From the NCBI RefSeq assembly GCF_947494755.1, contig NZ_CANLVZ010000007.1, forward strand, positions 124,001 through 188,000: a stretch of 64,000 nt of DNA, written 5' to 3'. The notes under the pieces were generated by a model. It saw only the letters and a list, made by a program, of their open reading frames with translations, was not told the origin of the DNA and did not search any database. This stretch comes from an uncultured Tateyamaria sp. GTDB taxonomy: Bacteria > Pseudomonadota > Alphaproteobacteria > Rhodobacterales > Rhodobacteraceae. Both the position numbers and the translations under genes were made by a program. Every line of letters begins with the position of its first letter. The stretch's first letter is position 1. Of this stretch, positions 20,616 through 46,372 are shown piece after piece.

Positions 20616-20647
20616 GGCCGTCCTCCCTGATCCGCACAGTCGCGCGC

Positions 20648-21494: not shown

Positions 21495-21499
21495 GGCAA

Positions 21500-24457: not shown

Positions 24458-25656
24458 GCCCGGCCTCCGCTCATGGTGACCTTGGCGATGATGCCCCGCT
24501 GAATTTCGTTGGAACCGCCAAAGATCGAGAGTTTGCGGTTGTTGAAATACTGCGCCGCAACAGGCCCCGCGCCAAGCGGGTCGGGGATTGTGTCATTGGC
24601 GCCCTCCAGCGCTTCGGAAGCGAAGGGCATCGCATAAGGGCCCGCCACACGACGCGCCAAGTCATTGATCTCCTGACGGATAATCGACCCCTTCACCTTG
24701 AGCATGGACGCCTCAAGCCCAGGCGCACCACCCGCAGCCGCCTTTGAAATGATCCGCAGGTTCGAAGTCGCCATTGCGCGAAGATCAATATCCACCTGCG
24801 CCACACGGGCCGCAAAATGCGGGTTTTCGATCAGCGGCCTGCCGTTGTGATTCTCAGCGCGCGCCATCCGTTTGACAGCTGCCAAGCCAGCCTGCGAAAA
24901 GCCGACGCCCGCGATATTCGCACGCTCATGGGTCAGCAGGTACTTGGCATAGGTCCAGCCTTCATTCTCATCACCCACGAGATTTTCAACCGGCACCCGG
25001 ACGTCCGTGAACCAGACCTCGTTCACCTCGTCACTGCCATCGAGCAAGATGATCGGCCGCACCTCGACGCCCGGCGTGTTCATGTCGATCAACAGAAAGG
25101 AAATACCTTCCTGTTGCTTTGCATCCGGGTCCGTACGGACAAGGCAGAAAATCATGTTTGCGTGCTGGCCAAGGGTCGTCCACGTCTTTTGCCCATTGAC
25201 CACATAGTGATCGCCATCACGCACCGCGCGGGTCTTGAGCGAGGCGAGATCAGACCCGGCACCCGGCTCGGAATAGCCCTGGCACCACCAGTCCGACCCA
25301 TCCAGAATGCGGGGCAACCAATGGTCCTGCTGCTCTTTCGATCCAAATTTCTGCAACACAGGCCCAAGCATTGACAGCCCGAAAGGCACGATCCGCGGGG
25401 CATTTGCGGCAGCTGCTTCGGTGTCAAAGATGTGACGCTGCACCGCGTTCCACTCCGCACCGCCAAAGGATTTGGGCCAGTTCGGGGCCAGCCATCCGCG
25501 CGCATTGAGGATGGCATGCCAGCGTTCCATGTCGTCCTTGCCCAACTCGATGCCCTTGGCCACCTTGTCCGCCATCTCCGAGGGCAGCTCATCACGCAGG
25601 AACTCCCGCACCTCGTTTTGGAAGGCCAGTTCGTCGTCGGTAAAGCTCATATCCAT
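24454..25656 (-). CDS. Acyl-CoA dehydrogenase (longer subunit of a pair)
   Basis: This is a 400-residue acyl-CoA dehydrogenase with the full FAD-binding core. It has RGWLAPNWPKSFGGAEW, QGYSEPGAGSDLASLKTRA (typical ACAD signature 1), VNGQKTWTTLGQHANMIF and C-terminal GGSNEIQRGIIAK. It follows the FadJ-like gene by 4 bases and overlaps the shorter dehydrogenase by ATGA. The neighbours suggest beta-oxidation of a substrate other than ordinary straight-chain fatty acids. Start at 25656 or two codons downstream cannot be separated. Confidence 0.92.
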   Translation of the reverse strand: MDMSFTDDELAFQNEVREFLRDELPSEMADKVAKGIELGKDDMERWHAILNARGWLAPNWPKSFGGAEWNAVQRHIFDTEAAAANAPRIVPFGLSMLGPVLQKFGSKEQQDHWLPRILDGSDWWCQGYSEPGAGSDLASLKTRAVRDGDHYVVNGQKTWTTLGQHANMIFCLVRTDPDAKQQEGISFLLIDMNTPGVEVRPIILLDGSDEVNEVWFTDVRVPVENLVGDENEGWTYAKYLLTHERANIAGVGFSQAGLAAVKRMARAENHNGRPLIENPHFAARVAQVDIDLRAMATSNLRIISKAAAGGAPGLEASMLKVKGSIIRQEINDLARRVAGPYAMPFASEALEGANDTIPDPLGAGPVAAQYFNNRKLSIFGGSNEIQRGIIAKVTMSGGRA

Positions 25657-25660
25657 CGTG

Positions 25661-27754
25661 TCAGCCCTTTTTGTTCAGGTCATCAAAGGTGCGGTTTTCG
25701 GCCACCAATTGTTCAAGCAGGGGGGCCGCGGTCCAAAAATACGGGTCCGTTTGGGCATAGGATTTTATGTCATCGAGCAAACCGGCCAGCCCCTGCATAT
25801 CCGCCCATTTCAACGGTCCGCCGCGATAGCGCGGAAAGCCATAACCAAAGATCAGCGTCATATCGACGTCAAGCGGTCGGCGCGCGATGCCTTCGCCCAC
25901 GACCTTGGCCGCTTCGTTCACCATTGCCGCCATGTAGCGACGCACGATTTCGTCCTCGGTAAACGTGCGCGGGGTGATCCCTTGGGCCTTCCGCTCGGCC
26001 TCGATCAGCAGCACCACATCCGGGTTCGGCACGCGCGCCTTAGCCCCCGCCGCGTAGTCATAGTAGCCTTTGCCGGTCTTTTGGCCAAAATGGCCCGCCT
26101 CGCACAGCTTGTCCGCGTAAGCCGCATCTCGGGCGCGCGGATCAAGCCCCTCGGCCCGTTTGCGCTTACGCACGGCCCAACCGATATCGAGCCCGGCAAG
26201 ATCCGCTACCGCGAAAGGGCCCATCGCAAACCCAAACTTTTCTAACGCCGCATCGATGTCGTAAGGGGATGCGCCATCAAGGATCATGTGATCGGCAGCC
26301 GTGCGGTAGGTCGACAAGATGCGGTTGCCAATAAATCCATCACAGACCCCGGCGCGCACAGACGTCTTGCCCAGCATCTTGCCAAGAGCAAAGCCTGTCG
26401 CGGCCACGGCGGGGGCGGTTTTGTCCGACACAACAACCTCAAGCAGCTTCATCACATGCGCGGGGGAGAAGAAGTGCAGCCCCAGAACATCGGCAGGACG
26501 CGACGTCGTTGCTGCGATCTCGTCAATGTCCAGATACGACGTGTTGGACGACAAAATAGCGCCCGGTTTGCAGACCCGGTCGAGTTCGCCAAAGACCTGC
26601 TTTTTGACACCCATATCCTCAAAAACGGCCTCGATCACCAGATCTGCGTCTTTGAGTGCCTCGTAGTTTGTGACGACATTCAGCGTCTGGGTGAGTATTG
26701 CCTCATGCTGCGCGGCACTGATCTTGCCCCGCTTCAACGCACCCGAAAGGTTGCGTTCGATCCGCTCGCGCGCGGCTTGCCCGGCCTCGGCGCTCATCTC
26801 GAGCAATGTCACCGACAGACCCGCAAGCAAAGCCGCCGTCGCGATGCCTGCGCCCATCGTGCCACCGCCGATCACACCGATCTGCTGCAAGGCGCGTGGC
26901 GCGACCCCTTTCAACTCAGGCAGGTTCGCCACAGCGCGTTCCGAGAAAAACGCGTGGATCATCCCCTCGCGCTGATCGGTCTGCATCAGGTCGTAAAATA
27001 TCTGACGCTCGGCCTTGAGGCCCTCGGCAAAGGGTTTCTCGACCGACGCCTGAACCGCGCGCACGCACCATGCGGGTGAAATCTGGCCCTTGCTGCGGGC
27101 CAAGGTAGCCTCAAAGGCTGCATCCCAGTCAATCGGCGCAGGGGCGGGCATCCCGCTCACCGGGCGGCGGGGCGCGTCCTTGGCCAGCAATTTCTGCGCA
27201 TACGCCAAACCGTTCTCAGCCGGATCGCCTTCTTGCAGCACGTCGATGATGCCCAACTTATGCGCCTCTTTCGCGCCCACGTGACGGCCCGTCGTCATCA
27301 CCTCTAGCGCGGGTTCCACACCGCTCACACGGGGCAAACGCTGCGTTCCCCCGGCACCGGGCAACAGCCCCAGATGCACTTCGGGCAAGCCGACGCGGGC
27401 GGAGGGCACAGCGATGCGGTAGTGACAGCCCAAGGCAACCTCCAGCCCACCGCCCAGGGACACGCCGTGCATGGAGGCCACGACCAAGAGCGGCGACGCC
27501 TCAATCCGGTTGATCAGGTCAGGCAGATGCGGCTGCAACGGTGGCTTGCCGAATTCGGTGATGTCGGCACCCGCGAAAAACGCGCGGCCCTCTCCGACAA
27601 TCAGCACTGCGCGCACGCCGGTATCAGCCTCGGCGCGGTCCATCATATCCCATAACCCTTGGCGCACCGCTTGACTCAGCGCGTTCACGGGCGGGTTCTG
27701 AACGGTTAAAACGGCGACGTCATCGTGACGGGCATAGGCAATCTTGTCGCTCAT
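25661..27754 (-). CDS. 3-hydroxyacyl-CoA dehydrogenase / enoyl-CoA hydratase fusion (FadJ/FadB-like)
   Basis: This 697-residue bifunctional enzyme performs the hydration and second oxidation of beta-oxidation. The N-terminal crotonase half has [34 protein letters not shown] and [19 protein letters not shown]. The C-terminal half has the NAD-binding [18 protein letters not shown] at about residue 293, [12 protein letters not shown], and [17 protein letters not shown] with the active histidine. The start ATG at 27754 has GGAGG 6 bases upstream. It heads the leftward fatty-acid-type operon. No thiolase is in the window, so the cycle must be finished by a gene elsewhere. Confidence 0.94.
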
Positions 27755-27908: not shown

Positions 27909-28406
27909 TCATGCATCGCGACGGTAGATAAAGCATCGCCCTTCGACCGCGGCTGCGGGCAAGGGTTGCTCGACAAGCCTATCGAAATACATCCGGTCCG
28001 AGGACACCATCAGGCCGCCAACGGCCAGCAACGGCTCGACCAACGGCGAGATATTGCGCGCAAAGATGTCGTTTTTAGCCCGGTTGTGACCGCCAAGGTC
28101 CGCGTGGATCAACACAGCCGTCGCGCCGAAACGTGTCAACGCGGCGGGCAGCGTGTCATAGACATCGCCCAGCAACACCATATCATCGGGCGGAGTGCTG
28201 TCGGGATGGGACGCCACCGCGCGCTCAAAAACGAACACGTCGCGGTCGGGCAGAATATGGCGGATGTGGTGATAGGTGCGCCCGTTGCCCAACCCCAACT
28301 CAAAGACGGGGCCGGGCAGGGCTGCAATCGCATCGGCCGCATGATCAAGACAGGCGCGCTGAGACACCATACGGTCCACAAACAGATCAAGGCGGCTTTG
28401 GGGCAT
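27909..28406 (-). CDS. Class I SAM-dependent methyltransferase-like protein
   Basis: This protein of about 165 residues has the glycine-rich SAM motif FELGLGNGRTYHHIR near residues 34-48. An acidic strand end follows (VLIHADLGGHN at about residue 100), consistent with a small Rossmann methyltransferase. Target unknown. It is clearly related to the protein at 45211-45690, which has EMGLGNGRSYDHLR in the same place, equal length and a similar end (CFIYRR / YLFYRA). Start ATG 28406 or GTG 28409 both follow AAGGA. It stands alone between the fadJ operon and the divergent peptide transporter. Confidence 0.75.
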   Translation of the reverse strand: MPQSRLDLFVDRMVSQRACLDHAADAIAALPGPVFELGLGNGRTYHHIRHILPDRDVFVFERAVASHPDSTPPDDMVLLGDVYDTLPAALTRFGATAVLIHADLGGHNRAKNDIFARNISPLVEPLLAVGGLMVSSDRMYFDRLVEQPLPAAAVEGRCFIYRRDA

Positions 28407-28567
28407 CACGGTATTCCTTTGTGTTTCCCATTAGATGGGTCAGAATTTCGCAAATGCCCAGCACGAATCCGCGAGCAGCGCGTGTATGGACCTATGCGCG
28501 GAAATCGGGTTCACTGAAATCCGGCATGCCACGGTGAAACGAAGGCTGAAACAACTAAGGACGGCAC

Positions 28568-30337
28568 ATGGCCCCCCTTCTTGACGTCAGAGACCTCTCT
28601 ATCGGCTTTGGATCGGCACCGCCGGTCGTGGCTGGCGTCAATTTTTCCGTCAATGCGGGCGAAACACTGGCCATCGTGGGCGAAAGCGGATCGGGCAAGA
28701 CGCTGTCGTGCCGTGCGGTGCTGCGTATTCTGCCCGGTGCCGCCCAATTGCGTCGCGGTGCCATCGAGTTCGGGACCGGGTCGGCGCGTACCGATCTGCT
28801 CAAACTGCCCTCGCGCGAGATCCGCGACATTCGCGGCGACCGCATTTCGATGATCTTTCAGGAACCTATGCGCTCCCTCTCGCCCTTGCACCGCATCGGC
28901 AATCAGGTGGCCGAGGTGTTGACCCTGCACCGCGACATGACGTCCGCCGAGGCCAAGAAAGACGTACTGGCCACCTTCGAACGCGTGGGATTTGCCGATC
29001 CCGAGCGCGCCTTTCGCGCCTATCCGTTCGAGATGTCCGGGGGTATGCGCCAGCGCGCGATGATCGCCATGGCGATGGTCGCCAAACCCGACCTGCTGAT
29101 CGCGGACGAACCCACGACCGCGCTGGATGTCACGACCCAAGCCCAGGTGTTGGGTCTGATGAAGGATTTGCAACGCGACACCGGCATGGCGATGATCCTT
29201 GTGACCCACGACCTTGGCGTCGTCGCCAACATGGCCGACAGCGTTGTAGTAATGAGCAAGGGGCACGTCATGGAAAGCGGCCCGGCCCCTGCGGTGCTGG
29301 GTAATCCGGGTCATGGCTATACAAAAAAGCTGTTCGCCGCCGCGCCCATGATCCCCAAGGATGCAACCCCCGTCCCGCCGGTGGAAAAAGACGACCTTAT
29401 TCTCGAGCTTGAGAACGTGTCGAAAACCTACACGGTTCGCGCCGGAGGCTGGCGGGCCAAGAAACAGGTCTTTGCCTGCCGCGACGTGTCCCTGAAATTG
29501 CCACGCGGCAAAACGCTGGCCGTGGTCGGCGAAAGCGGGTCGGGCAAGACGACATGCGCGCGCATCGCCTTGGGTGCCGAAATCCCGGACGAAGGGTCGC
29601 GCGTGCTGTTCCGCGCCAAGACGAACTCCGAAACGGTCTGCATCAACGATCTCAGCCGATCCGAAAAGATCGCCTTTCAGCGCCAGGCGCAGATGGTGTT
29701 TCAGGACCCTTATTCGTCCCTGTCGCCGCGCATGCGGGTGCAGGAGGCGCTGACCGAGCCGATGGAAATTCACCGCATCGGTGACAAGACGGCCCGCCGT
29801 GACAAGGCGGCGGAGATGCTCCGGTGGGTCGGGCTAAACCCCGATATGCTCAAACGCTACCCGCATGCCTTTTCCGGTGGGCAACGCCAGCGCCTGTCCA
29901 TTGCACGCGCGCTGACCCTTGATCCGGTGCTGCTGGTCTGTGACGAGCCGACCTCGGCGCTGGATGTGTCGGTGCAGGAACAGATCCTGAGCCTGCTGGA
30001 ACGCATCCGCGATGGCATGGGTCTGAGTTACCTGTTCATCAGCCATGATCTGGCCGTCGTGGCCCGCATTGCGGATGAGGTAGCAGTGATGCGACAGGGG
30101 GTCGTGGTCGAACAGGCCCCGCCCTCGACCCTATTCTACAATCCGCGCCACCCATATACCAAAGCCCTGATCGCGGCCCAACCCGAACCGGATGTGAGCC
30201 GCCCGATTGATTTGGCCCAGGTGGCACATGGGGCGGGATCCTCTGCATCCTGGCCCGAGCAATTTCGCTTTGAAGGGCGCGATGCCCCCGACCTCATCCA
30301 AGTTGAACCCGGACACAAGGTGCGTTGCCATGCTTGA
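28568..30337 (+). CDS. Peptide/dipeptide ABC transporter ATP-binding protein, two fused domains
   Basis: This 589-residue protein joins two OppD/OppF-type nucleotide-binding domains. The first has Walker A GESGSGKT at about residues 38-45, signature [16 protein letters not shown] and Walker [13 protein letters not shown]. The second has Walker [10 protein letters not shown] at about 320, [14 protein letters not shown] and [14 protein letters not shown]. Such fusions (YejF type) energise import of peptides or related compounds. AAGGA precedes the ATG at 28568. It is the first gene of a four-gene rightward operon, and its stop overlaps the binding-protein start by 8 bases. Confidence 0.92.
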
Positions 30338-32252
30338 CCGACTGACACCCCTGTTGATCGCGGGGCTGATGGCTCTGCCCGCCTTTGCCCAGCCTGTCGT
30401 GCAGGAAAGCGATTTCTGGGCTGCCGAAGTCTCGAAAGGTCAGATGGATCCCGCCCCCGACCGTATCCCCGACACCCCGCTGGTCGTCGATCTTGAGGCC
30501 AAGGGGCGCGAATTCGGCAAGCAGGGCGGCACGCTGCGCACCATGGTCACCCGCTCCAAGGACGTTCGCCAAATGGTCGTTTACGGCTATGCGCGGTTGG
30601 TGGGCTATAACGAAAAGTACGAGCTGCGCGCTGACATCCTGCGCGACTATGACGAGGTGGACGGGCGCATCTTTACCCTGCACCTGCGTCCCGGTCATCG
30701 CTGGTCGGACGGCGCGCCCTTCACCTCGGAAGACTTTCGCTACTGGTGGGAAAACGTCGCCCTCAACGAAGAGTTAAGCCCCAATGGCGCACCCGATGTG
30801 ATGCGCGTGGGGAACGACGTGGGCACCATGACCTTCCCTGATGAGCACACCGTTGTGGTCGAGTTCCCCCGCGCCAATCCGATGTTCCTGCAATCGCTGG
30901 CCCAAGCCAGCCCGCCCTTCATCTATCGCCCCTCGCACTACCTCAAACAGTTCCACGTCGACTACAACACAATGGAACAGATGGAGGAGATGATCGACGC
31001 CAAGCGGGTGCGCAGCTGGGCCCCGCTGCACAACAAACTCGACAACATGTACAAGTTCGACAATCACGAATTGCCCACCTTGCAGCCGTGGATGCCGGCC
31101 AGCACCGGTGGGAATTCGCGTCAGTTGTTCGTGCGTAATCCCTATTTCCACCGGATCGACGCGCAAGGCGTGCATCTGCCCTATATCGATGTGGTCGAGA
31201 TGGGGATTGTCGGCTCGGGCCTTGTCGCGGCCAAATCGAACGCGGGCGAAAGCGACCTGCAGGCCCGTGGCCTCGATTTCCGTGACGTGTCGATCCTGAA
31301 AAAGGGCGAGACGGATGGCGCGCCCTACCGCACCTATCTGTGGGCCAACAGTGCTGCGAGCCAGATCGCGATCTATCCCAACCTCAACTTTGCCGATCCG
31401 GTCTGGCGGCAGGTCATCCGCGATGCCCGCTTCCGGCGCGCCCTGTCCATGGGCATTGACCGGCGCATGATCAACCGCGCGCTTTATTTTGGTCTTGGCA
31501 AGGAAGGGAATATGACCGCCCTTGCCGCAAGCCCGTTCTTTGAATCCGAGAACCTGACCAAATGGGCGCTGTATGATCCCGACACGGCCAACCTGATGTT
31601 GGACGAGATGGGGCTTGCCGAACGTGACGCCGCTGGCATCCGCAAGCTGCCCGACGGGCGCCCCATGGAGTTCGTCATCGAAACCGCCGGGGAACGGCAG
31701 GAGGTCGAGAACGCGCTTGCCATCATCACCGACACATGGCGCGATCTGGGCATCAAGCTCATCATGCGCCCACTTGATCGCGACATCCTGCGCAACAGGG
31801 TCTTTTCCGGCGTGACCATGGCCGCCGTCTGGTACGGCTGGGACAATGGCATCCCGCAGCCCTACACGCCGCCCACATATCTTGCGCCCACCGATCAGGT
31901 GTTCTTTGCCTGGCCGAAATGGGGGCAATATTACCAGACCCATGGCGCTGCGGGCGAACCGGTGGACATGCCCGAGGCCGAGCGGCTGATGGAACTTGCC
32001 GCCCTGTGGGAGCGGCAGCCCGATCCCTACGACCGCACGCGCATATGGCGCGAAATGCTCGCCATCCATGCCGATCAGCAATACGGCATCGGCATCCTGT
32101 CCGAAGCCCCTCAGCCCGTTGTCGTGTCTGACCGGCTGCGCAATGTGCCCGAGTTCGGCAAATGGGCATGGGATCCCGGCGCACATTTCGGCATCCACCG
32201 CGTTGACGAGTTTTTCTTTGCCGACGAAGAGTTGGCGCAGGTGTCCAAATGA
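30330..32252 (+). CDS. Peptide-type ABC transporter substrate-binding protein (YejA/OppA-like)
   Basis: This 640-residue periplasmic protein belongs to solute-binding family 5. It has a signal peptide ([20 protein letters not shown]) followed by a type II binding fold. Recognisable parts are VYGYARLVGYNEKYELRADI, FTLHLRPGHRWSDGAPFTSEDF, and FRRALSMGIDRRMINRALY. Its length is larger than DppA (about 535), closer to YejA-like proteins. The start ATG at 30330 sits inside the ATPase end (8-base overlap), and the gene overlaps the first permease by ATGA. The ligand (oligopeptide, microcin-like, opine or other) is not resolvable from sequence. Confidence 0.9.
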   Translation: MLDRLTPLLIAGLMALPAFAQPVVQESDFWAAEVSKGQMDPAPDRIPDTPLVVDLEAKGREFGKQGGTLRTMVTRSKDVRQMVVYGYARLVGYNEKYELRADILRDYDEVDGRIFTLHLRPGHRWSDGAPFTSEDFRYWWENVALNEELSPNGAPDVMRVGNDVGTMTFPDEHTVVVEFPRANPMFLQSLAQASPPFIYRPSHYLKQFHVDYNTMEQMEEMIDAKRVRSWAPLHNKLDNMYKFDNHELPTLQPWMPASTGGNSRQLFVRNPYFHRIDAQGVHLPYIDVVEMGIVGSGLVAAKSNAGESDLQARGLDFRDVSILKKGETDGAPYRTYLWANSAASQIAIYPNLNFADPVWRQVIRDARFRRALSMGIDRRMINRALYFGLGKEGNMTALAASPFFESENLTKWALYDPDTANLMLDEMGLAERDAAGIRKLPDGRPMEFVIETAGERQEVENALAIITDTWRDLGIKLIMRPLDRDILRNRVFSGVTMAAVWYGWDNGIPQPYTPPTYLAPTDQVFFAWPKWGQYYQTHGAAGEPVDMPEAERLMELAALWERQPDPYDRTRIWREMLAIHADQQYGIGILSEAPQPVVVSDRLRNVPEFGKWAWDPGAHFGIHRVDEFFFADEELAQVSK

Positions 32253-33277
32253 TGTTCATCCGCTATGCGGTGTGGCGGCTGCTGACGATGCTGCTGACGC
32301 TGGCAGTGGTGTCGGTGCTGGTCTTTGTGATCATCAACCTGCCCCCGGGTGACTATCTGTCCAACCAGATTGCCGAGCTGCGCGCCACCGGGCAGGCAGA
32401 AGGCGTCGCCAAGGCGGAATTCCTGCGCAAGGAATACGCGCTCGACCGGCCGCTCTGGCAGCAATACCTGATCTGGGTGGGTGCCATTCCCGGCCCGCAG
32501 GGCTTTTCCGGACTGATCCAGGGCGATTTCGGCTGGTCTTTTGAGTTTGACGCGCCGGTTGCGGACATTGTAGGCGACGCACTTTGGCTCACCGTTCTGG
32601 TGAACCTCGCTGCGGTCCTGTTCGTTTACCTCGTGGCCTTGCCCCTGGGCGTGCTGGCCGCTTGGAAATCGGCCACGTGGGTCGATTACACCACAGCTTT
32701 CGTGGGCTATCTGGGGCTCGCGACACCGAACTTTCTGCTCGCGCTGATCCTGTTCTATTACGGGCACAAATATCTCGGCCTGCCCATCGGGGGCCTGATG
32801 GCACCTGAATTCGAGGGCGAGCCGATGTCGCTGGCCAAGGTCCAATCCATCCTGATCCACCTGATCGTGCCGACCTTCGTGATCGGCACCTCGGGGGCGG
32901 CGGGGATGATGCAGCGGCTGCGAGCCAACATGCTCGACGAACTCAGTAAACCGTATGTCGAAACCGGCAAGGCCAAGGGGCTGTCGTCGACCCGGTTGCT
33001 GACGAAATATCCGCTGCGCATGGCCTTCAACCCCTTCGTGGCTGATATCGGCAACCTGCTGCCTGCGATGGTGTCGGGGTCGGTTCTGGTGTCGGTCGTG
33101 CTGGGCCTTCAAACAATCGGGCCAGCGCTGTTGACGGCGCTCAAGTCGCAGGATCAGTTTCTGGCGGGCTTCGTGCTGATGTTCGTCGCCCTGCTGACCC
33201 TGATCGGCACAATGATTTCAGATTTGCTGCTGGTGCTGCTTGATCCGCGCATCCGCTACGGCGCGCGGGAAGGATAG
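32249..33277 (+). CDS. ABC transporter permease (DppB/YejB-like)
   Basis: This 342-residue inner-membrane permease begins with the family start MFIRYAVWRLLTMLLTL and has about six transmembrane segments. Other family marks are LRKEYALDRPLWQQYLIW, FGWSFEFDAPV, and the ATPase-contact EAA-like loop around KPYVETGKAKGLSSTRLL. It forms the translocation pore with the next gene product. It overlaps the binding-protein gene by ATGA and is separated from the next permease by 3 bases. Confidence 0.92.
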   Translation: MMFIRYAVWRLLTMLLTLAVVSVLVFVIINLPPGDYLSNQIAELRATGQAEGVAKAEFLRKEYALDRPLWQQYLIWVGAIPGPQGFSGLIQGDFGWSFEFDAPVADIVGDALWLTVLVNLAAVLFVYLVALPLGVLAAWKSATWVDYTTAFVGYLGLATPNFLLALILFYYGHKYLGLPIGGLMAPEFEGEPMSLAKVQSILIHLIVPTFVIGTSGAAGMMQRLRANMLDELSKPYVETGKAKGLSSTRLLTKYPLRMAFNPFVADIGNLLPAMVSGSVLVSVVLGLQTIGPALLTALKSQDQFLAGFVLMFVALLTLIGTMISDLLLVLLDPRIRYGAREG

Positions 33278-33280
33278 CAG

Positions 33281-34435
33281 ATGAGCACATTGCCCGACGG
33301 CCGGTTTATCGATGACGCCCCTTATGATCCCAATGTGGATCTATCGGCCATTGATCGCACGGACATGGACGCACCCAACTGGCTGCTGGTCTGGCGCAAG
33401 TTCCGCCGCCATCGGCTTGGGCTGATCTCGGGGCTGTTTTTGTTGCTGGCCTATATGGCGATCCCCTTTGCGGGCTTCTTTTCGCCCTACACCCCGAACG
33501 AGCGCAGCGCCGATTACCTCTATCACCCGCCCCAAGCCATCAAGTTCTGGCACGAGGGCGACTATATCGGCCCCTTTGTCTATCCGACTGAAGCGGTGGC
33601 CGACCTCGAAAACTACCGCTGGACCTATATCACCGACGAAACCCGGCCCATGCCGTTGCAATTCTTTTGCAAACGCACCGAGTACAACCTGTTCGGCGTC
33701 ATCCCGACAGAGCGGCATCTGTTCTGCGCGCCCGAAGGGGCGACGGTGTTCATCTTCGGCTCGGACCGCCTGGGGCGGGACGTGTTCTCGCGCATTTCCT
33801 ACGGCGCGCAACTGTCGCTGACCGTGGGCCTGATCGGCATCACTGTCTCCTTCATCCTTGGCATCGGGTTCGGGGCCATCGCGGGCTACTTCGGGGGCTG
33901 GGTCGACTGGGTGGTGAACCGCGCAATCGAAATCCTGCGCTCTCTGCCAGAGTTGCCGCTGTGGCTCGCCCTGTCGGCGGCGGTGCCTTCGAATTGGGGG
34001 CCCGTTTCGGTGTTCTTCATCATCTCGATCATATTGGGTCTGCTCGACTGGCCGGGGCTGGCCCGGGCGGTGCGAAGCAAATTCCTGTCGCTGCGAGAGG
34101 AAGAATACGTGCGCGCGGCTGAGATGATGGGGGCCAAGCCGGGCCGGGTCATCCGCCGCCATCTGTTGCCCAACTTTATGTCCCATCTGATCGCCTCGGC
34201 CACCTTGTCGATCCCGGCGATGATCCTGGGGGAAACGGCGCTGAGCTTTCTCGGCCTTGGCCTGCGCGCCCCTGCGGTGTCATGGGGCGTGATGCTGAAC
34301 GATGCGCAAAACCTCGCGAGTATCGAGATTTATCCGTGGACTGCGATCCCGATGCTGCCGATCATCATCGTGGTGCTGGCGTTCAACTTCCTCGGCGACG
34401 GTCTGCGCGACAGTCTGGACCCATACTCAAGCTGA
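33281..34435 (+). CDS. ABC transporter permease (DppC/YejE-like) with large periplasmic insertion
   Basis: This 384-residue second permease has one N-terminal transmembrane helix (GLISGLFLLLAYMAIPFAGF). A long periplasmic segment of roughly 110 residues follows, containing YHPPQAIKFW and two cysteines (FFCKR, LFCAPEGA). The usual five-helix core then begins at SDRLGRDVFSRISYGAQLSL. The EAA loop is around EEEYVRAAEMMGAKPGRVI, and the C-terminus ends GDGLRDSLDPYSS. The insertion is longer than in DppC (about 300 residues total) and resembles the YejE-type subfamily. It is the last gene of the operon and converges on the helicase gene over a palindromic element. Confidence 0.9.
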   Translation: MSTLPDGRFIDDAPYDPNVDLSAIDRTDMDAPNWLLVWRKFRRHRLGLISGLFLLLAYMAIPFAGFFSPYTPNERSADYLYHPPQAIKFWHEGDYIGPFVYPTEAVADLENYRWTYITDETRPMPLQFFCKRTEYNLFGVIPTERHLFCAPEGATVFIFGSDRLGRDVFSRISYGAQLSLTVGLIGITVSFILGIGFGAIAGYFGGWVDWVVNRAIEILRSLPELPLWLALSAAVPSNWGPVSVFFIISIILGLLDWPGLARAVRSKFLSLREEEYVRAAEMMGAKPGRVIRRHLLPNFMSHLIASATLSIPAMILGETALSFLGLGLRAPAVSWGVMLNDAQNLASIEIYPWTAIPMLPIIIVVLAFNFLGDGLRDSLDPYSS

Positions 34436-39225: not shown

Positions 39226-40449
39226 ATGGTCCATTCCACCTCTGCGACACCGGATCGATCCGGCATGCGCCGTCGGCGCGTCGTTCTCTACAGCCATGAT
39301 ACCTTCGGTCTGGGCCATTTGCGCCGCTCGCGGGCGCTGGCCTCGGCGTTGACGCAATCGGGTGTGGCCGAATCCGCGATCATCCTGACAGGCAGCCCCG
39401 TTGCCGGCCGCTTTACCTTTCCCGAAGCCGTCGATCACGTGCGCCTGCCCGGCGTCAAAAAGCTCGAAGACGGCTCCTATGCCAGCCAAAGCGCGGGCAT
39501 GGACATCGATCAGACCACGGCCCTGCGCTCCGGTCTGATTGAATCGACTATTGCGCAGTACGAACCCGATCTGCTGATCGTCGACAAGGAACCGACCGGG
39601 TTCCGCGGCGAGTTGCTGCCTGTTCTCAACACGCTGGCCCGCGAGGGGCGCACCCGCATCGTGCTCGGCCTGCGCGATGTGCTGGATGAACCGGATGTGC
39701 TGGCCAGCGAATGGGCGCGCAAAGGGGCGGTTGAGGCCACAGAGTCCTTTTATGACGAGTTGTGGGTTTACGGTGTCAAGTCCGTTTATGACCCGACGCA
39801 GGGCCTGCCCCTCTCGGATGCGGTGCGCGCGCGCACCTTCTGGACGGGCTATCTGCGCCGCAGCATCGTGGATCCCGCCGAGACGCCTGACACCCCCTAC
39901 ATCCTGATCACCCCTGGTGGCGGTGGGGACGGTGCCGCCATGGTCGATCTGCTTCTCAAGGCTTACGAGCAGGACCCGACCCTCGCCCCCCATGCGGTAC
40001 TGGTCTATGGGCCGTTCCTTTCGGGCGACACCCGCGATGGGTTCGAGGCGCGCGTGGCCGCCCTTGGGGGCCGTGTCACCGCCACCGGCTTTGACAGCCG
40101 CATCGAATCGCTCTTTGCCAGCGCCGAAGGGGTGATCTGCATGGGCGGGTACAATACCTTCTGCGAGCTGCTGTCCTTTGATCAGCGCGCCGTGATCGTG
40201 CCACGCACCAAGCCGCGCCTCGAACAATGGATCCGCGCCAATCGCGCCGAAGAGCTGGGGCTGGTGCGCAATCTCGACCAGTTCCGAGACGAGTTGAACG
40301 TCGAGGGCATGATCGCCGCCATCCGCGCCCTGCCCCGCCAACAGCGCCCGTCTGAAGCCGGTGCCGATGGTCTGCTCGACGGGCTCGAGGTCGTGAACCA
40401 GCGCGCCCGCAACCTGATGAACCAGACCCTGAGCAACGCGGCTGAATGA
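39226..40449 (+). CDS. GT-B glycosyltransferase (COG4671/GT28-like), first gene of glycan operon
   Basis: This protein of about 407 residues has an N-terminal VLYSHDTFGLGHLRRSRALA motif, as in MurG-like GT-B enzymes. A linker follows with ILITPGGGGDGAAMVDLL, then the C-terminal nucleotide-sugar site CMGGYNTFCELLSFDQ and IVPRTKPRLEQWIRA. It probably transfers a sugar from a nucleotide donor in the cytoplasm or at the membrane face. The start ATG 39226 follows AGGAAA at some distance; ATG 39265 directly before the conserved region is an alternative. It is the first of seven genes joined by ATGA overlaps. It is paralogous to the protein at 43329-44456. Confidence 0.8.
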   Translation: MVHSTSATPDRSGMRRRRVVLYSHDTFGLGHLRRSRALASALTQSGVAESAIILTGSPVAGRFTFPEAVDHVRLPGVKKLEDGSYASQSAGMDIDQTTALRSGLIESTIAQYEPDLLIVDKEPTGFRGELLPVLNTLAREGRTRIVLGLRDVLDEPDVLASEWARKGAVEATESFYDELWVYGVKSVYDPTQGLPLSDAVRARTFWTGYLRRSIVDPAETPDTPYILITPGGGGDGAAMVDLLLKAYEQDPTLAPHAVLVYGPFLSGDTRDGFEARVAALGGRVTATGFDSRIESLFASAEGVICMGGYNTFCELLSFDQRAVIVPRTKPRLEQWIRANRAEELGLVRNLDQFRDELNVEGMIAAIRALPRQQRPSEAGADGLLDGLEVVNQRARNLMNQTLSNAAE

Positions 40450-41684
40450 GCAGCGCCGCCCCTCGCCTTGCCATTGTGGTCAAGGGTTGGCCGCGCCTGT
40501 CCGAGACCTTCATCGCACAAGAGCTTGTGGCCCTTGAACGTGCGGGTATCGACTTTGCGATCTGGTCGCTACGCCATCCCACGGACAAGAAAACGCACCC
40601 GCTGCACGATCAGTTGAGCGCGGATGTGTTCTACTTGCCCGAATATCTGCATGACGCGCCGGGCCGGGTGCTGCGTGGGGTTCTGTCTGCCATGGCGCGG
40701 CCCGGGTTTTGGGGCGCAGCCTGGCAATTCGCCCGCGACCTCGCGCGTGATTTCAACCGCAACCGGGTGCGCCGGTTCGGACAGGCCTGCGTGCTGGCGC
40801 GCGAACTGCCCACAGGGACCGAGGCGCTATATGCCCATTTCCTGCACACCCCGTCCTCCGTCGCACGCTACTGTGCGATGATCCGCGGCCTGCCGTGGTC
40901 GTTCTCCGCCCATGCCAAGGATATCTGGACCTCACCCGACTGGGAGCTGCGCGAAAAGCTGAGCACGCAAAGCGTGGGCGCCGCCTTTGGCGCGACTTGC
41001 ACGGCGTTCGGGGCTGAGCACTTGAACGGACTGGCCGCTGGCACGCCAGTTGATCTGGTCTATCACGGCCTCGACCTTGCGCGCTTTCCACCGCCCCCCG
41101 ATCGGCGCGCGCGAGCACCCGGCGATCCGTTCGCGATGCTGTCCGTAGGGCGGCTGGTCGAGAAAAAGGGGTTTGACAACCTGATCGACGCGTTGGCCCT
41201 ACTGCCCCCGGAAATCGAGTGGCACTGGACCCATATTGGCGGCGGGGAACTGGCGGACCAGATGCGCGCCCGCGCCCACGGCGCAGGTGTCAGCGACCGC
41301 ATCACATGGCGCGGGGCCTGTGATCAGCCCGAAGTGATCGCGGCAATGCGCGCGGCAGACCTGTTCGTTCTGCCCTCTCGCGTGGCGGCAAATGGGGACC
41401 GCGACGGACTGCCCAACGTCTTGATGGAGGCCGCGAGCCAAAAGCTCGCCATTCTGTCCACGCCCGTCTCGGCCATCCCGGAATTCATTGACGATGGAGT
41501 TCATGGGCTCCTCAGCGAAGATGCCCCCGAGGCATTGGCCGCCCATATGGTCCGCGTCGCCGCGGACCCGACACTTGGCCCGGCCTTGGCCGAGGCCGCC
41601 CATGCGCGCCTGCACGCTGAATTCACCATGCAGCCCGGCATTGACCACCTTGCTGACCGTCTGCGCTGGATCATGCGCTCATGA
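40446..41684 (+). CDS. Glycosyltransferase family 4-type protein
   Basis: This is a 412-residue GT-B retaining glycosyltransferase. The N-terminal half has LAIVVKGWPRLSETFIAQEL, typical of GT4 enzymes, and SAHAKDIWTSPDWEL. The C-terminal half has LSVGRLVEKKGFDNLIDALALL and the donor-site EX7E-like segment DGLPNVLMEAASQ, followed by STPVSAIPEFIDDGVHGLL. It uses a nucleotide-activated sugar donor. ATGA overlaps join it to both neighbours. Acceptor and product are unknown, but its place among three other glycosyltransferases points to assembly of one oligosaccharide or glycolipid. Confidence 0.86.
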   Translation: MSSAAPRLAIVVKGWPRLSETFIAQELVALERAGIDFAIWSLRHPTDKKTHPLHDQLSADVFYLPEYLHDAPGRVLRGVLSAMARPGFWGAAWQFARDLARDFNRNRVRRFGQACVLARELPTGTEALYAHFLHTPSSVARYCAMIRGLPWSFSAHAKDIWTSPDWELREKLSTQSVGAAFGATCTAFGAEHLNGLAAGTPVDLVYHGLDLARFPPPPDRRARAPGDPFAMLSVGRLVEKKGFDNLIDALALLPPEIEWHWTHIGGGELADQMRARAHGAGVSDRITWRGACDQPEVIAAMRAADLFVLPSRVAANGDRDGLPNVLMEAASQKLAILSTPVSAIPEFIDDGVHGLLSEDAPEALAAHMVRVAADPTLGPALAEAAHARLHAEFTMQPGIDHLADRLRWIMRS

Positions 41685-42751
41685 AGGTTGCGTTCTATGC
41701 CCCGCTCAAGGCCCCCGATCATCCGGTGCCCTCAGGTGATCGCACGATGGCGCGGGCGTTGATTGCGGCTCTTGGTCATGGCGGGCACGAGGTCGATATT
41801 GCGTCCGGTCTGCGCATTTACGAAGGGACAGGCGATGCGGCCCGGCAATCGGTCCTGATGGCCAAGGCCGAACAAGAGATCGCCCGGCTGCGCATCAGTC
41901 CCGACGCAGCATCGTGGCGGGCATGGATCACCTATCACAACTACTACAAAGCACCGGACCTGATTGGGCCTGCGGTCGCCGATGCGCTTGGCATTCCCTA
42001 TATCCAGATCGAAAGTTCGCGGGCGCGCAAGCGGCTGGACGGCCCGTGGGCCCCATTCGCAGCCGCCGCCGAAGCGGCCAGTGATGTGGCCCACACGATC
42101 CTTTATGTCACACAGCACGACGCTCAAACGCTGCGGCGGGATGCGCCACAAGGGCAGCGCTTGCGCCATCTGCCGCCCTTTTTGGCGCATGCTGAGTTGC
42201 CGCCAGCCAGCGATTTGACCGGCCCCATGATCAGTGTCGGCATGATGCGGCCCGGGGACAAGCTGGCCTCTTACGCGTTGATCGCCCAAACGCTGGCCAT
42301 CTTGCCAGACGGGCTGAATTGGCACCTGACTATTGCCGGGGACGGAGAGGCGCGGGCCGAGGTTGCAACCCTGATGGCACCTTTTGGCGACCGGGTGCAG
42401 ATGGCTGGCACCCTCGACGCGGATGCCCTTGGTGCGCGGTTGCGCACCGCCAGCCTGCTGCTGTGGCCCGGCGTGAATGAAGCCTTCGGGCTCGCCTATC
42501 TTGAAGCGCAGGCGGCAGGTATTCCCGTCGTGGCGCAGGACCGCACTGGCGTGCGCGAAGTGGTGACCGGCCCCCTGTCGGATATGGATGCCGGCCCCGC
42601 CGCGATGGCAGATTACATCATGGCCCTTTTGACCAACCAACAGATGCGCGCGCGGGCCGGAGCAGCAGCGCGCGCAATGATCCAAGCCCGCCACCTTTTG
42701 AGCTCGGCCGCGACAACCCTGACGGCCGTTCTGGATGAGGTCGCGCAATGA
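41681..42751 (+). CDS. Glycosyltransferase (GT4-like)
   Basis: This 356-residue protein has a GT-B C-terminal domain with NEAFGLAYLEAQAAGIPVVAQ (the EX7E donor motif) and GVREVVTGPLSDMD. Its N-terminal half is less typical: MKVAFYAPLKAPDHPVPSGDR, with the conserved SGDR-like loop, and HNYYKAPDLIGPAVADALG. It likely adds a further sugar in the same pathway as its neighbours. It is joined by ATGA to the upstream glycosyltransferase and the downstream phosphatase. Donor and acceptor are unknown. Confidence 0.82.
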   Translation: MKVAFYAPLKAPDHPVPSGDRTMARALIAALGHGGHEVDIASGLRIYEGTGDAARQSVLMAKAEQEIARLRISPDAASWRAWITYHNYYKAPDLIGPAVADALGIPYIQIESSRARKRLDGPWAPFAAAAEAASDVAHTILYVTQHDAQTLRRDAPQGQRLRHLPPFLAHAELPPASDLTGPMISVGMMRPGDKLASYALIAQTLAILPDGLNWHLTIAGDGEARAEVATLMAPFGDRVQMAGTLDADALGARLRTASLLLWPGVNEAFGLAYLEAQAAGIPVVAQDRTGVREVVTGPLSDMDAGPAAMADYIMALLTNQQMRARAGAAARAMIQARHLLSSAATTLTAVLDEVAQ

Positions 42752-43332
42752 TCCGCCTTGCCCTCTTGCGTCACGGCCATACTCATTGGAACCGCGCAGG
42801 GCGCATTCAGGGGCGCACCGACATCCCGCTTGACGACGCCGCAAGGGCGCAGCTTGGTGAGATGCGCTTGCCTGACGACTGGGCGCGCGCTGATCTGGTG
42901 GCAAGCCCCCTGTCGCGCGCGATGGAGACGGGAACGCTGCTCACCGGTCGCACGCCGCTGGCCGAACCCGCCTTGATCGAGATGGATTGGGGCACTTGGG
43001 AAGGACACCAAGGCGCTGACCTGCACCGCGATCCCGCCTCGGGCTTTCGCGATATCGAAGCGTGGGGCTGGGACTATTGCCCGCCGGGTGGGGAAAGCCC
43101 GCAGACTGTGCGGGATCGGGTCCTGCCCTGGGCGCAAACTCTGCGCCGCGACACGGTCGCGATCTGCCACATCGGGGTGATGCGGGTCTTGATGGCCGTC
43201 GCCACGGGCTGGGATTTCACAGGCCCCGCCCCGTTTCAGATCAAGCGAAACCGTCTGTTTTGCATCACGATTGACCGCACCGATTGGCGCGCGGACCCCA
43301 ATGCCACACGGCTGATTGGGCGGTCGTCATGA
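42748..43332 (+). CDS. Histidine phosphatase-family protein
   Basis: This 194-residue phosphoglycerate-mutase-like phosphatase has the phosphohistidine motif LLRHGHTHWN at residues 6-15. It also has the acid segment EMDWGTWEGH and the second histidine in AICHIGVMRVLMA. The usual RHGET has become RHGHT, a small change next to the active histidine. In a glycosyltransferase operon it may remove phosphate from a sugar phosphate or from a nucleotide-sugar intermediate (inference). It is joined to both neighbours by ATGA overlaps. Confidence 0.85.
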   Translation: MIRLALLRHGHTHWNRAGRIQGRTDIPLDDAARAQLGEMRLPDDWARADLVASPLSRAMETGTLLTGRTPLAEPALIEMDWGTWEGHQGADLHRDPASGFRDIEAWGWDYCPPGGESPQTVRDRVLPWAQTLRRDTVAICHIGVMRVLMAVATGWDFTGPAPFQIKRNRLFCITIDRTDWRADPNATRLIGRSS

Positions 43333-44456
43333 AGGTGATGATCGTGGTCACTCACCTGCTTGGCACCGGACATCTTGCGCGGGCGCTGACCTTGGCCCGC
43401 GCCTTTGATGCCGCGGACGATGAGGCGACGGTTGTCAGTGGAGGACTGCCCGTCAGCCACTTTGACAGCGATGGGGTGACGCTGATCCAACTGCCTGCCA
43501 TACGCTCGGACGGCGTGGAGTTTACAACACTGCTGGACCCTCACGGCGAGGTTGCGGACGCGCCCTATATGGCCGCGCGGTGCCGCGCACTTGTGGCCGC
43601 TCTGACCCGGATCCGCCCCGATGTGCTGATCACCGAGTTGTTCCCCTTTGGCCGACGCATCCTGCGCGATGAATTTCGCGCTCTGCTGGAAGCGGCGCTT
43701 GCAATGACCGCCCCTCCAGTGATCCTGTCGTCCATCCGCGATATCCTCGCGCCGCCCAGCAAACCGGCCAAAGCCCAGTTTGCCGACGACATGATCACAC
43801 GGTTCTACGACGGGGCATTGGTGCATTCCGATCCGGCACTGATCCCTCTGGATCGGAGCTGGCCTGTGTCTGAGATGCTGGAAAAACGGCTGCATTATAC
43901 CGGCTTCGTGGCCCCTGTCCCCCCTGCGCCAAGCACGCCAAACAACCAGATATTGGTGAGTGCAGGCGGTGGTGGCGTGGGTGATCGGATATTTGAGGCC
44001 GCCCGCGACGCCGCCCACCAGACACCTGATCTGCAATGGCGGTGCCTGATCGGTGGATCACCTGATCGCATCCCACCCCTTGCCGAGCGCGCACCTGCCA
44101 ACATGATCTGCGAGGCCACGCGCGCCGACTTCCGCACGCTTCTGAGTGGGGCGGCCGCGTCGGTGTCGATGTGCGGCTACAACACGGCGATGGATGTCTT
44201 GCAGACCGGCGTTCCGGCGGTCTTTGTGCCGTTCGATGATGGGGGCGAAGTGGAACAAGGATTGCGCGCAGAGGCGCTGTCCACCCTACCCGGTGTGGGT
44301 GTGGTCACTCAGGATGCGCTGGACGGTGCGGCCCTGCTGCACGGGCTGGATCAGGTCCGCTCCGCCCCGCGCCGTGCAGCACGGAGTGACCACATGGACG
44401 GTGCCGCACACAGCGTGCGGATCGTGCGTGAGATATGCCACAAGAGGGCACGATGA
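43329..44456 (+). CDS. GT-B glycosyltransferase (COG4671/GT28-like), second copy
   Basis: This protein of 375 residues starts VMIVVTHLLGTGHLARALTLA and continues with LVSAGGGGVGDRIFEAA-type glycine loop and SMCGYNTAMDVLQTGVPAVFV. These match the N-terminal, linker and nucleotide-sugar motifs of the protein at 39226-40449 (FGLGHLRRSRALA, PGGGGDG, CMGGYNTFCELL). Two divergent paralogues in one operon suggest two separate transfer steps with related donors. The start ATG 43329 forms an ATGA overlap with the phosphatase stop; an upstream in-frame codon at 43284 lies inside the phosphatase and is rejected. Confidence 0.82.
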   Translation: MKVMIVVTHLLGTGHLARALTLARAFDAADDEATVVSGGLPVSHFDSDGVTLIQLPAIRSDGVEFTTLLDPHGEVADAPYMAARCRALVAALTRIRPDVLITELFPFGRRILRDEFRALLEAALAMTAPPVILSSIRDILAPPSKPAKAQFADDMITRFYDGALVHSDPALIPLDRSWPVSEMLEKRLHYTGFVAPVPPAPSTPNNQILVSAGGGGVGDRIFEAARDAAHQTPDLQWRCLIGGSPDRIPPLAERAPANMICEATRADFRTLLSGAAASVSMCGYNTAMDVLQTGVPAVFVPFDDGGEVEQGLRAEALSTLPGVGVVTQDALDGAALLHGLDQVRSAPRRAARSDHMDGAAHSVRIVREICHKRAR

Positions 44457-45214
44457 AATGTGATTGGTCCCCTTTGCGCAACGCCCTCGCAGCCTGCCGT
44501 CGCGACGCGCTGAGCGTCCCGCTCTGGTGGCGCGACGACGATGCGGTTGCGCGCACGGCGGCGCTGGATCAGCTTGGCGCGTTGTCAATGCAATTGGAGA
44601 TACCGGTGCACCTTGCGGTAATCCCTGCGCACGCGACCCCTTCGGTCGTCGGGGCGGTAGCAGATTTCGGCATGGTGCCGGTCGTGCATGGATGGGCGCA
44701 TGTCGATCACAGCACGCCGGGTGAGAAAAAGAACGAGTTCATGACCCTCCGCGCCAGCGCCAGCGAGGACACCGCTACGGCGCTGAAGGTGATGACCCAA
44801 CTGTTTGGGAACCGGCTGCGCCCCATGTTTGTCCCGCCGTGGAACCGGATCAATGATCAGGTCAGCGCGGGGCTCGCGCCCCAAGGCTACAGCACGGTGT
44901 CGACGTTCGGGCCGCGGGGCGACGACCACGACGCATCGGGCCTTGCGCATATCAACACCCATATCGACCCGATCTGGTGGAAGGGCGCGCGCGATCTGAT
45001 CGACCCGGACAAGTTGATCGCGCAAACCGTGGCGCATCTGGAGTCACGCCGGACGGGGGCCGAGGATGGGAACGAGCCCTTGGGCCTGTTGACCCATCAC
45101 CTCGTTCAAACCCCCGCGATCTGGTCTTTTGCCGAACAATTTTTGCACGAAATGAGGACAGGTGGGGCGACCCCTTGGGTCATGGCCGCACCTCGAACGG
45201 AGACTGAAACATGA
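44453..45214 (+). CDS. Polysaccharide deacetylase-like protein (divergent NodB fold)
   Basis: This 253-residue protein shows degenerate but ordered NodB motifs. These are an acidic triad WWRDDDAV in place of TFDDG at about residues 24-31, HGWAHVDHS in place of HSxxH at about 81-89, and FVPPWNRI in place of RxPYG at about 124-131. The metal-binding Asp-His-His set appears to be kept. The likely reaction is removal of an acetyl group from an N-acetylated sugar made by the operon's glycosyltransferases (inference). No signal peptide is visible, so it should act in the cytoplasm, unlike many chitin or peptidoglycan deacetylases. ATGA overlaps join both neighbours. Confidence 0.72.
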   Translation: MKCDWSPLRNALAACRRDALSVPLWWRDDDAVARTAALDQLGALSMQLEIPVHLAVIPAHATPSVVGAVADFGMVPVVHGWAHVDHSTPGEKKNEFMTLRASASEDTATALKVMTQLFGNRLRPMFVPPWNRINDQVSAGLAPQGYSTVSTFGPRGDDHDASGLAHINTHIDPIWWKGARDLIDPDKLIAQTVAHLESRRTGAEDGNEPLGLLTHHLVQTPAIWSFAEQFLHEMRTGGATPWVMAAPRTETET

Positions 45215-45690
45215 GCAGACTTGAATCCATGCGCCGCCGTCTGACGGCCCAGATCGACGGGATCAACTGGGCCGCCGCCAAGATCACCGACATCCCGGGC
45301 GATGTGCTGGAAATGGGGCTGGGCAACGGGCGCAGCTATGACCATTTGCGCCAGGAAGTGACGGACAGACGGATCTGGGTCATCGACCGGATCCTGAAAT
45401 GCCATCCCAGTTGTGTCCCGCCCGAACCCGATTTTCTTGAGGGCGAGGCCGAACCAATGATGCAACGGCTGATCGATGACGGGCACAAGATGGCACTCGC
45501 GCACTATGATTTCGGCTATGGGATCAAGGAAAGGGATGTAGAGGAAGGGGCGCGGCTCAGCCCCCTGATCGTGCAACTGATGAGCTCCGGCGGCCTTGTG
45601 CTGTCACAACAACCGCTTGTGGGGCTGACCCAAATCGTAGGGCCCGACACGATCGATCCTGAACGCTATCTCTTCTACCGGGCCGCGTGA
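45211..45690 (+). CDS. Class I SAM-dependent methyltransferase-like protein, last gene of glycan operon
   Basis: This 159-residue protein has the SAM-binding-like motif EMGLGNGRSYDHLR near residues 33-46 and an otherwise small Rossmann architecture. It is the paralogue of the product of 27909-28406. At the end of the first strand after motif I it has WVIDRILKCHPS, and the second acidic position is AHYDFGYG. In this operon it could methylate a sugar or carboxyl group of the product. The ATGA overlap with the deacetylase gene supports co-translation. The operon seems to end here; the next gene starts 115 bases later with its own ribosome site. Confidence 0.72.
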   Translation: MSRLESMRRRLTAQIDGINWAAAKITDIPGDVLEMGLGNGRSYDHLRQEVTDRRIWVIDRILKCHPSCVPPEPDFLEGEAEPMMQRLIDDGHKMALAHYDFGYGIKERDVEEGARLSPLIVQLMSSGGLVLSQQPLVGLTQIVGPDTIDPERYLFYRAA

Positions 45691-45805: not shown

Positions 45806-46372
45806 ATGACTGTTTTCAAGACCGCTGCCACAGCCGCACTGGTGACCTTTGTCGCCACGGCCAGTTTTGCCGCACCTCTGAAGCTGACACCCGCCAATCC
45901 GCAACCCACAGGGCTGAAGCCGGGACTGGCCGTGAAATACGTCTACCCATTGGATGTCAAAAGCCTGAACCAGGCCAACCGCTATCTCAAAGAAGCAACC
46001 CCCGGCACCCCGCTGAGCGGCCTTGATTACCGCGACACGGCTGAGGGCGACAAAACGCTGACGTCCAAGCAGGCCGAGCAGGTGGTCGCGGGGATTTCGG
46101 GCTATGTCCGGTTTGACAGCCCCGGCACGTATACAATCGATTTCCTGACCAATGATGGGCTCGACGCCAAGATCAGCGGCCAGACGGTCGGCTATTTTGA
46201 TGGGCGTCAGACGTGCCAGGAAACACCTGCCGTGCAGGTCGAGGTGCCATCAGCTGGCTGGTACGAGCTTGAAGCCACGTATTTCCAGCGGGTCGGGACA
46301 TCGTGCCTGCACATGCGGGCAGGAAAAGGTGCGCCAGACTGGATGGCTGACGCGGCGTTTGGGCACAAGTAA
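45806..46372 (+). CDS. Exported PA14-like domain protein
   Basis: This 188-residue protein has a signal peptide (MTVFKTAATAALVTFVATASFA) and a PA14-like beta-sandwich. The visible segment runs YVRFDSPGTYTIDFLTNDGLDAK, then VEVPSAGWYELEATYFQR and TSCLHMRAG. PA14 modules bind carbohydrates in many toxins and hydrolases. The start ATG 45806 has AAAGGAG 7-8 bases upstream. It lies directly after the glycan operon and before a strong terminator, so a link to surface carbohydrate is possible but not shown. There are two cysteines (QTCQE, TSCLH) that could form a disulfide. Confidence 0.75.
   Translation: MTVFKTAATAALVTFVATASFAAPLKLTPANPQPTGLKPGLAVKYVYPLDVKSLNQANRYLKEATPGTPLSGLDYRDTAEGDKTLTSKQAEQVVAGISGYVRFDSPGTYTIDFLTNDGLDAKISGQTVGYFDGRQTCQETPAVQVEVPSAGWYELEATYFQRVGTSCLHMRAGKGAPDWMADAAFGHK

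Follow-up and report, generated by a model that had tools for sequence, protein, structure and literature searches.

The phazolicin-protecting polysaccharide (PPP) cluster of Sinorhizobium meliloti comprises nine genes within smb21252-smb21271 that are needed for an uncharacterized surface polysaccharide (PMC10128002). Phazolicin, an antimicrobial peptide, lowers the fitness of strains with insertions in these genes, and mutants in smb21252 and in smb21265 show raised sensitivity to it; orthologues of PPP genes in Agrobacterium tumefaciens emerged in a pyocyanin screen (PMC10128002). Attack by Myxococcus raises the expression of seven of the nine PPP genes (PMC10315480). We analyzed a stretch of 64,000 nucleotides from the genome (4.1 Mb) of an uncultured Tateyamaria sp., positions 124001-188000 of its contig C7, called the window in the following. 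It contains an operon of seven genes (g1 to g7, 39226-45690, plus strand). In our reading, to which we give a probability of about 0.78, these genes are the part of an alphaproteobacterial locus that assembles an envelope polysaccharide in the cytoplasm, and the locus is homologous to the PPP cluster of S. meliloti. This reading draws directly on sequence families, the modelled folds of g5 and g6, gene order, co-occurrence with an exporter, linkage to an importer and homology to the PPP genes. The genes of the operon are:

39226..40449, plus strand: g1, GT-B glycosyltransferase, MurG/MJ1255-like, PF04101 (Glyco_tran_28_C) at 25.2 bits (cut-off 22)
40446..41684, plus strand: g2, GT4 glycosyltransferase, EpsE-like
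41681..42751, plus strand: g3, GT4 glycosyltransferase
42748..43332, plus strand: g4, histidine phosphatase, branch 1, PF00300
43329..44456, plus strand: g5, GT-B glycosyltransferase, the second GT28-like one, PF04101 at 25.9 bits (cut-off 22)
44453..45214, plus strand: g6, CE4/NodB-fold N-deacetylase, cytoplasmic
45211..45690, plus strand: g7, S-adenosylmethionine-dependent methyltransferase of the Methyltransf_17 family (PF12692), with 3iht as its sole solved match

The seven genes are joined by six four-base ATGA overlaps (40446, 41681, 42748, 43329, 44453 and 45211), all of which were re-found exactly as the first-pass annotation of this DNA had placed them. A rough gene caller found a four-base stop/start overlap in 4 of 25 same-strand neighbour pairs elsewhere in the window, so the ATGA series in the operon goes beyond chance; the caller dropped g3, and the 4 of 6 operon junctions visible to it all overlapped. 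Judged from the overlaps, g1 to g7 very likely form one transcription unit. A fixed ratio of the products, which had been proposed on the same grounds, does not follow from four-base overlaps. For g1, the open frame reaches back to 38929; the start at 39226 agrees over the full length with many relatives.

The domain labels given earlier to g1-g5 and g7 hold in Pfam. For g6, nothing above cut-off was found in Pfam (best DUF2334, E 0.022) and nothing in NCBIfam, and it was therefore filed by fold. Its AlphaFold model, with a predicted local distance difference test score (pLDDT) of 93.9, matches CE4/NodB-fold deacetylases, which bears out the earlier label NodB-like. Residues D28-D30, H79 and H83 of g6 are invariant in 41 of 41 aligned sequences; we take them to be the metal site, as in an active CE4 deacetylase. 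The model of g5 (pLDDT 93.4) has the fold of GT1/GT28, GT-B transferases, and the closest solved chains to g4 are alpha-ribazole phosphatases. A signal peptide is evident in none of the seven products, as had been claimed: within residues 1-40, no 19-residue Kyte-Doolittle mean exceeds 1.26. Over the whole length of the seven proteins the maximum is 1.65, within g4, and lies about at the usual membrane threshold of ~1.6. With four glycosyltransferases and a deacetylase, the set supports the cytoplasmic glycan assembly that the first-pass annotation had predicted.

On pSymB of S. meliloti (CP140934), homologues of g1, g2, g3, g5 and g6, of the four importer proteins and the exporter described below, and of a cyclic nucleotide-binding (cNMP) protein were found within 25 kb. 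The best S. meliloti match differs for each of the four transferases: GTc for g1 (44% over 336 residues), GT4b for g2 (51%), a gene placed at smb21252 for g3 (41%) and GTa for g5 (38%), while g6 matches the S. meliloti deacetylase with 34%. The corresponding values for Azospirillum are 54%, 62%, 49%, 49% and, for g6, 45% over 208 residues, with 57% for g4. The S. meliloti deacetylase gene follows directly after the g3-like gene, and g4 and g5 intervene in the window. Among or beside the S. meliloti homologues are a gene for an MscS-type channel, a cyclase, a DUF3095 gene, a polysaccharide lyase (PF14099) and a nucleotide sugar dehydrogenase. As order references we used the tags SMb21240, 21242, 21243, 21247, 21248 and 21249 (PMC5498481) and exoF3 = SMb21245 (PMC12542648). 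Gene order places the g3-like gene at smb21252 with the deacetylase gene adjoining, and by position only, the four transferases are assigned to the nine PPP genes. To judge from the gene content and the order, the homologous region of S. meliloti coincides with the PPP cluster (PMC10128002). The earlier statement that no described pathway was known is thereby not supported. It had also been said that membership in a characterized polysaccharide locus would count against the first interpretation; this applies by half, as a genetic phenotype of the locus is on record, and the chemical identity of its product is not given in the accessible text. In the stretch of S. meliloti ml28 (L221, 4981-7688), the exporter match spans two reading frames and has no gene in the PLSDB table.

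Relatives of g6 were sought in one genome per species of 84,980 species, and 502 were found. The best 80 of these 502 matches (L056-L135, to which the counts below are confined) are referred to as named loci; the closest come from Tateyamaria and the titles are mostly those of Rhodobacteraceae genera. All of g1-g7 are present in 70 of the 80, so the gene order, whose conservation had been suggested as a check, is kept among relatives. One of the complete loci is L110, from Ruegeria pomeroyi strain SZCCDBG043. No g7 was seen in L085, L086, L088, L091, L107, L116 and L134, with L107, near a contig end, also being without g1; the sequences of L090 and L097 start within the operon, and L094 has g6 only. 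Counted with ATG, GTG or TTG as start codon, six four-base overlaps occur in 9 of the 70 complete loci, five in 33, four in 21 and three in 7. The tight packing is conserved among relatives; the full series of six is not. In a sample of relatives, g6 was found in 27 of 61 genomes (our own counted) and in all 20 genomes of the genus that the window comes from, and in the wider sample of 387 alphaproteobacterial genomes it occurs in 131, from 47 families.

From 39 of these 131 genomes, picked to span families, 40 stretches of 14 to 20 kb (class loci) were compared; all counts from them are lower bounds, as some genes lie beyond the stretch ends. The five core genes g1, g2, g3, g5 and g6 stand together in 33 of 40, of which 31 have g4 as well and 31 have at least three of four importer genes. 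An ATP-binding cassette (ABC) exporter, full-length or nearly so and with a median of ~900 residues, is present in 24 of 40 (26 by script, less short ATPase-like matches in L207 and L210; a short piece in L203 was left uncounted). Further companions are a small PH-domain protein (27/40), a Methyltransf_17 gene (16/40), a cNMP-binding protein (10/40) and a metallo-beta-lactamase-fold protein (8/40). In a frequent layout, methyltransferase, cNMP protein and exporter run in one direction and g1-g6, PH protein and importer in the opposite direction; in Azospirillum oryzae, methyltransferase, exporter, importer and g1-g6 form a single row. Because exporter, cNMP protein, Methyltransf_17 and Opp-type importer adjoin the same transferases and deacetylase elsewhere, the operon is best described, on its gene content, as the Rhodobacteraceae form of a widespread alphaproteobacterial locus and not as an orphan pathway. 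In Rhizobium beringeri (L222), g6 is in two pieces and missing from the PLSDB gene table.

Some class loci deviate from these layouts. The gene set is variable in L201 (5.5-9.7 kb) and L184 (6.9-9.6 kb), one locus has an additional g5-like transferase between g3 and g4, and another a gap of ~1.7 kb between g5 and g6. Outside this set, the Escherichia coli plasmid pCFSAN004180G (L224, 11998-22176), which has F4 fimbria genes, encodes g1-like (34%) and g2-like (33%) transferases together with an MsbA-like ABC protein, two phosphotransferases, an alginate-export family protein and a UDP-glucose dehydrogenase.

The ATPase of the exporter bears an insertion of ~290 residues, which was used as a probe (295 residues of the operon-linked exporter of genome G037, or 280 of our own protein on contig C10). 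The Tateyamaria genome encodes two copies of this exporter family:

C10:59290-61842: exporter with a C-terminal cNMP_binding domain (Pfam)
C2:52278-54848: exporter with a cNMP domain by similarity

In Sulfitobacter maritimus, an exporter with 57% identity to the C10 protein follows directly after g6, and in Rhizobium and Mesorhizobium the cNMP domain is a separate gene beside the exporter. The S. meliloti exporter is 40% identical to that of G037 and 28% to the C10 copy. Among 199 Rhodobacteraceae genomes searched with the C10 probe, 39 have both g6 and exporter, 2 only g6, 3 only the exporter and 155 neither (Fisher 2e-35). With the G037 probe, the 387 Alphaproteobacteria divide into 128 with both, 3 with only g6, 20 with only the probe match and 236 with neither (Fisher 4e-76); both tests ignore shared ancestry. 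An exporter copy lies at most 50 kb from g6 in 15 of 38 Rhodobacteraceae genomes whose coordinates were compared. Within the family members of the relatives sample, 24 of 37 have g6; the exporter was found in 23 of these 24 and in 0 of the 13 others, the exception being G022. Co-occurrence with an exporter, which the first-pass annotation had proposed to look for, is found in 39 of 41 g6-bearing Rhodobacteraceae. Its statement that there is no exporter stands for the interval 39226-45690 and has to be corrected for the pathway, since an exporter adjoins the operon in other Alphaproteobacteria and relatives of it are encoded elsewhere in the genome. In G022 (L050) the operon is decayed, with no match to g1-g3 in a stretch of 19.5 kb and a stop in g6; importer and both methyltransferases are kept there, and the exporter was not found.

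The exporter data bear on the kind of product. It had been thought to be a soluble oligosaccharide or a glycolipid; an exported envelope polysaccharide appears more likely. A small soluble glycan that stays in the cytoplasm, e.g., an osmolyte or storage saccharide, would suit operon products without signal peptides and the MscS gene adjoining the operon, and histidine phosphatases take part in glucosylglycerate synthesis (6s2q and 4pz9 are weak matches of g4, 34 bits). The tight co-occurrence with the exporter family and the adjacency in 24 of 40 class loci point to export, however, which makes a soluble product very improbable. More weight can be given to a lipid-anchored oligosaccharide, glycolipid or lipopolysaccharide (LPS)-core-like, that an MsbA-like exporter would flip instead of a polymer. 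The operon has four GT-B enzymes and no polymerase, deacetylation in the cytoplasm occurs for LPS cores, and in NCBIfam the G037 exporter matches MsbA best. That match is far under the cut-off (213.6 of 602 bits), however, a PF14099 polysaccharide lyase gene lies within the S. meliloti cluster, and the S. meliloti authors regard the product as an envelope polysaccharide (PMC10128002). We therefore consider a lipid-anchored product unlikely, and prefer an envelope polysaccharide.

The importer is encoded upstream of the operon in the window:

28568..30337, plus strand: double ATPase, Opp/Dpp family
30207..32252, plus strand: solute-binding protein (SBP_bac_5), start uncertain (most searches took 30321)
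32249..33277, plus strand: permease 1
33281..34435, plus strand: permease 2

Compared with the S. meliloti proteins, the ATPase has 48%, the binding protein 43% and the permeases 49% and 52% identity. The importer might be an independent peptide or muropeptide transporter whose place beside the operon is due solely to descent. Peptides and muropeptides are substrates of related SBP_bac_5 importers (for muropeptides, PMC9790009), the solved chain closest to the binding protein, 5ipw, is annotated as oligopeptide-binding, and a helicase and the MscS gene separate importer and operon in Tateyamaria. Against this, of the 33 class loci that hold all five core genes, 31 also have the importer linked, and next after 5ipw among the solved relatives comes the pectin-binding protein SPH1118 (PMC9314435). 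A canonical YejABEF importer was rejected, as the YejF (522/834 bits), YejB (103.7/445) and YejE (108.8/439) models all stay under their cut-offs. An independent transporter is a real possibility that falls short of an even chance. As 5ipw points by its name to peptides and SPH1118 to acidic sugars, re-import is no more than a possible step.

Several observations weigh against assigning the operon to a PPP-type locus. Neither g4 nor g7 was matched in the S. meliloti stretch, the SMb numbers were inferred from gene order relative to seven tags printed in two papers, and a chemical structure of the PPP product was not found in the accessible literature. The two exporter copies of Tateyamaria, neither of them on the contig of the operon, are each only 33% identical to the linked G037 exporter, and in the inserted region the C10 copy is 25% identical to it. 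In addition, among 148 genomes that match the exporter probe, 20 have no g6; the same holds for 6 of 116 genomes with Methyltransf_17. Finally, the importer could adjoin by descent, and the solved protein closest to it carries the annotation oligopeptide-binding.

For the envelope-polysaccharide locus, the following mechanism can be proposed. The transferases g1, g2, g3 and g5 would use nucleotide sugars to assemble a repeat or chain. One donor is perhaps a UDP-hexosaminuronate, because four relatives have a linked gene for a nucleotide sugar dehydrogenase. In genome G036, the dehydrogenase encoded upstream of g1 has TviB as best model (455 bits against a cut-off of 592), the Mesorhizobium and S. 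meliloti enzymes match the general nucleotide sugar dehydrogenase model best and the UDP-N-acetylmannosamine type next, and the R. beringeri cluster has an annotated nucleotide sugar dehydrogenase. In contrast to these, that of plasmid pCFSAN004180G is of the UDP-glucose type. In Tateyamaria none was seen beside the operon; a protein with a 53% match to the G036 protein is encoded on another contig. The deacetylase g6 may strip N-acetyl groups prior to export, g4 may take phosphate off a precursor or intermediate, and g7 may methylate an acceptor. The exporter, with its cNMP domain fused or adjoining, would carry the product over the inner membrane under cAMP-type control; the cNMP domain hints at such control, as do the cyclase genes of rhizobial clusters. 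The importer may recover fragments, as suggested by its linkage and the nearest solved relatives of its binding protein, and the polymer would act as a barrier at the envelope. Put together, this would be a class-wide glycan cycle in which a hexosaminuronate-containing, partly de-N-acetylated envelope polymer is exported under cyclic-nucleotide gating and its fragments are re-imported by an Opp-type system, a tentative picture that is doubtful as a whole.

Three further genes of the window lie close to the operon or the importer:

27909..28409, minus strand: second Methyltransf_17 gene; apart from g7, no other was found in the genome
36614..39031, minus strand: large MscS-type mechanosensitive channel, divergent from the operon, association uncertain
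45806..46372, plus strand: small PA14-domain protein (PA14 24.3 bits, cut-off 24) with a signal-peptide-like start, downstream of the operon, association uncertain

Counted by eye, 73 of the 80 named loci have a match to the MscS gene. For the MscS protein of the S. meliloti cluster (L221, 26910-29030), the best match in our own genome is the MscS of the window (223.7 bits, next 189.9). A minus-strand run beside the importer (17866-27754) encodes a TIM-barrel protein, a sugar kinase, an AMP-binding enzyme, two acyl-CoA dehydrogenases and a fused enoyl-CoA hydratase/3-hydroxyacyl-CoA dehydrogenase. The gene at 25661 had been considered as an exporter and was rejected, as Pfam assigns it to the latter enzyme. 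Relatives of some genes of this run lie downstream of the operon on the opposite strand in L082, L097, L098, L120 and L122, among others.

The homologous PPP locus of S. meliloti was already known by genetics; new are the Roseobacter layout and the class-wide association with exporter and importer. For the locus outside Rhizobiaceae, no published description by gene content was found, an absence that is weakly supported because most subscription journals were not covered, and the class-wide association was not found in print. The deacetylase is present in about one third of the sampled alphaproteobacterial genomes, and published phenotypes were found in two Rhizobiaceae only, within the accessible texts. 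If the Roseobacter operon is the same system, operon and exporter together offer a compact set in culturable marine bacteria for isolation of the polymer. Two ideas also become testable, the cyclic-nucleotide gating of the exporter and the re-import of fragments.

Among other known systems, the Nod factor genes NodB, NodC, NodS and NodIJ likewise combine a deacetylase, a methyltransferase and an ABC exporter around sugar transfer. The transferases of the operon, however, are GT4 and GT28-like (with a GT-B fold for g5), whereas NodC is a GT2 chitin synthase, and the operon is without an acyltransferase. Nod-factor-like synthesis was set aside, as no GT2 NodC is found among the operon glycosyltransferases. 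The cluster Atu2577-Atu2592 of A. tumefaciens, named an uncharacterized glycan cluster, is similar by its description, with an ABC exporter, several glycosyltransferases and a UDP-N-acetylglucosamine (UDP-GlcNAc) dehydrogenase; mutations in Atu2577, Atu2582, Atu2583, Atu2590 and Atu2592 raise the fitness of a yejABEF mutant (PMC9790009). The muropeptide importer YejBEF-YepA belongs to the same superfamily as the linked importer (PMC9790009). It differs in that the window has the order ATPase, binding protein, permease, permease, and the Yej models score far below cut-off. Peptidoglycan recycling would be the counterpart of the proposed glycan cycle. The closest system is the PPP cluster, which shares with the window the homologues named above and the adjoining MscS gene. 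In S. meliloti, the genes are split and interleaved with the cyclase, DUF3095, lyase and dehydrogenase genes, whereas the assembly genes of Tateyamaria form one tight operon and its exporters lie elsewhere, the C10 copy with a fused cNMP domain. Of the PPP-type features, the four transferases, the CE4-type deacetylase and the linked four-gene importer are matched in Tateyamaria, and the exporter with insertion and cNMP domain is present at unlinked positions.

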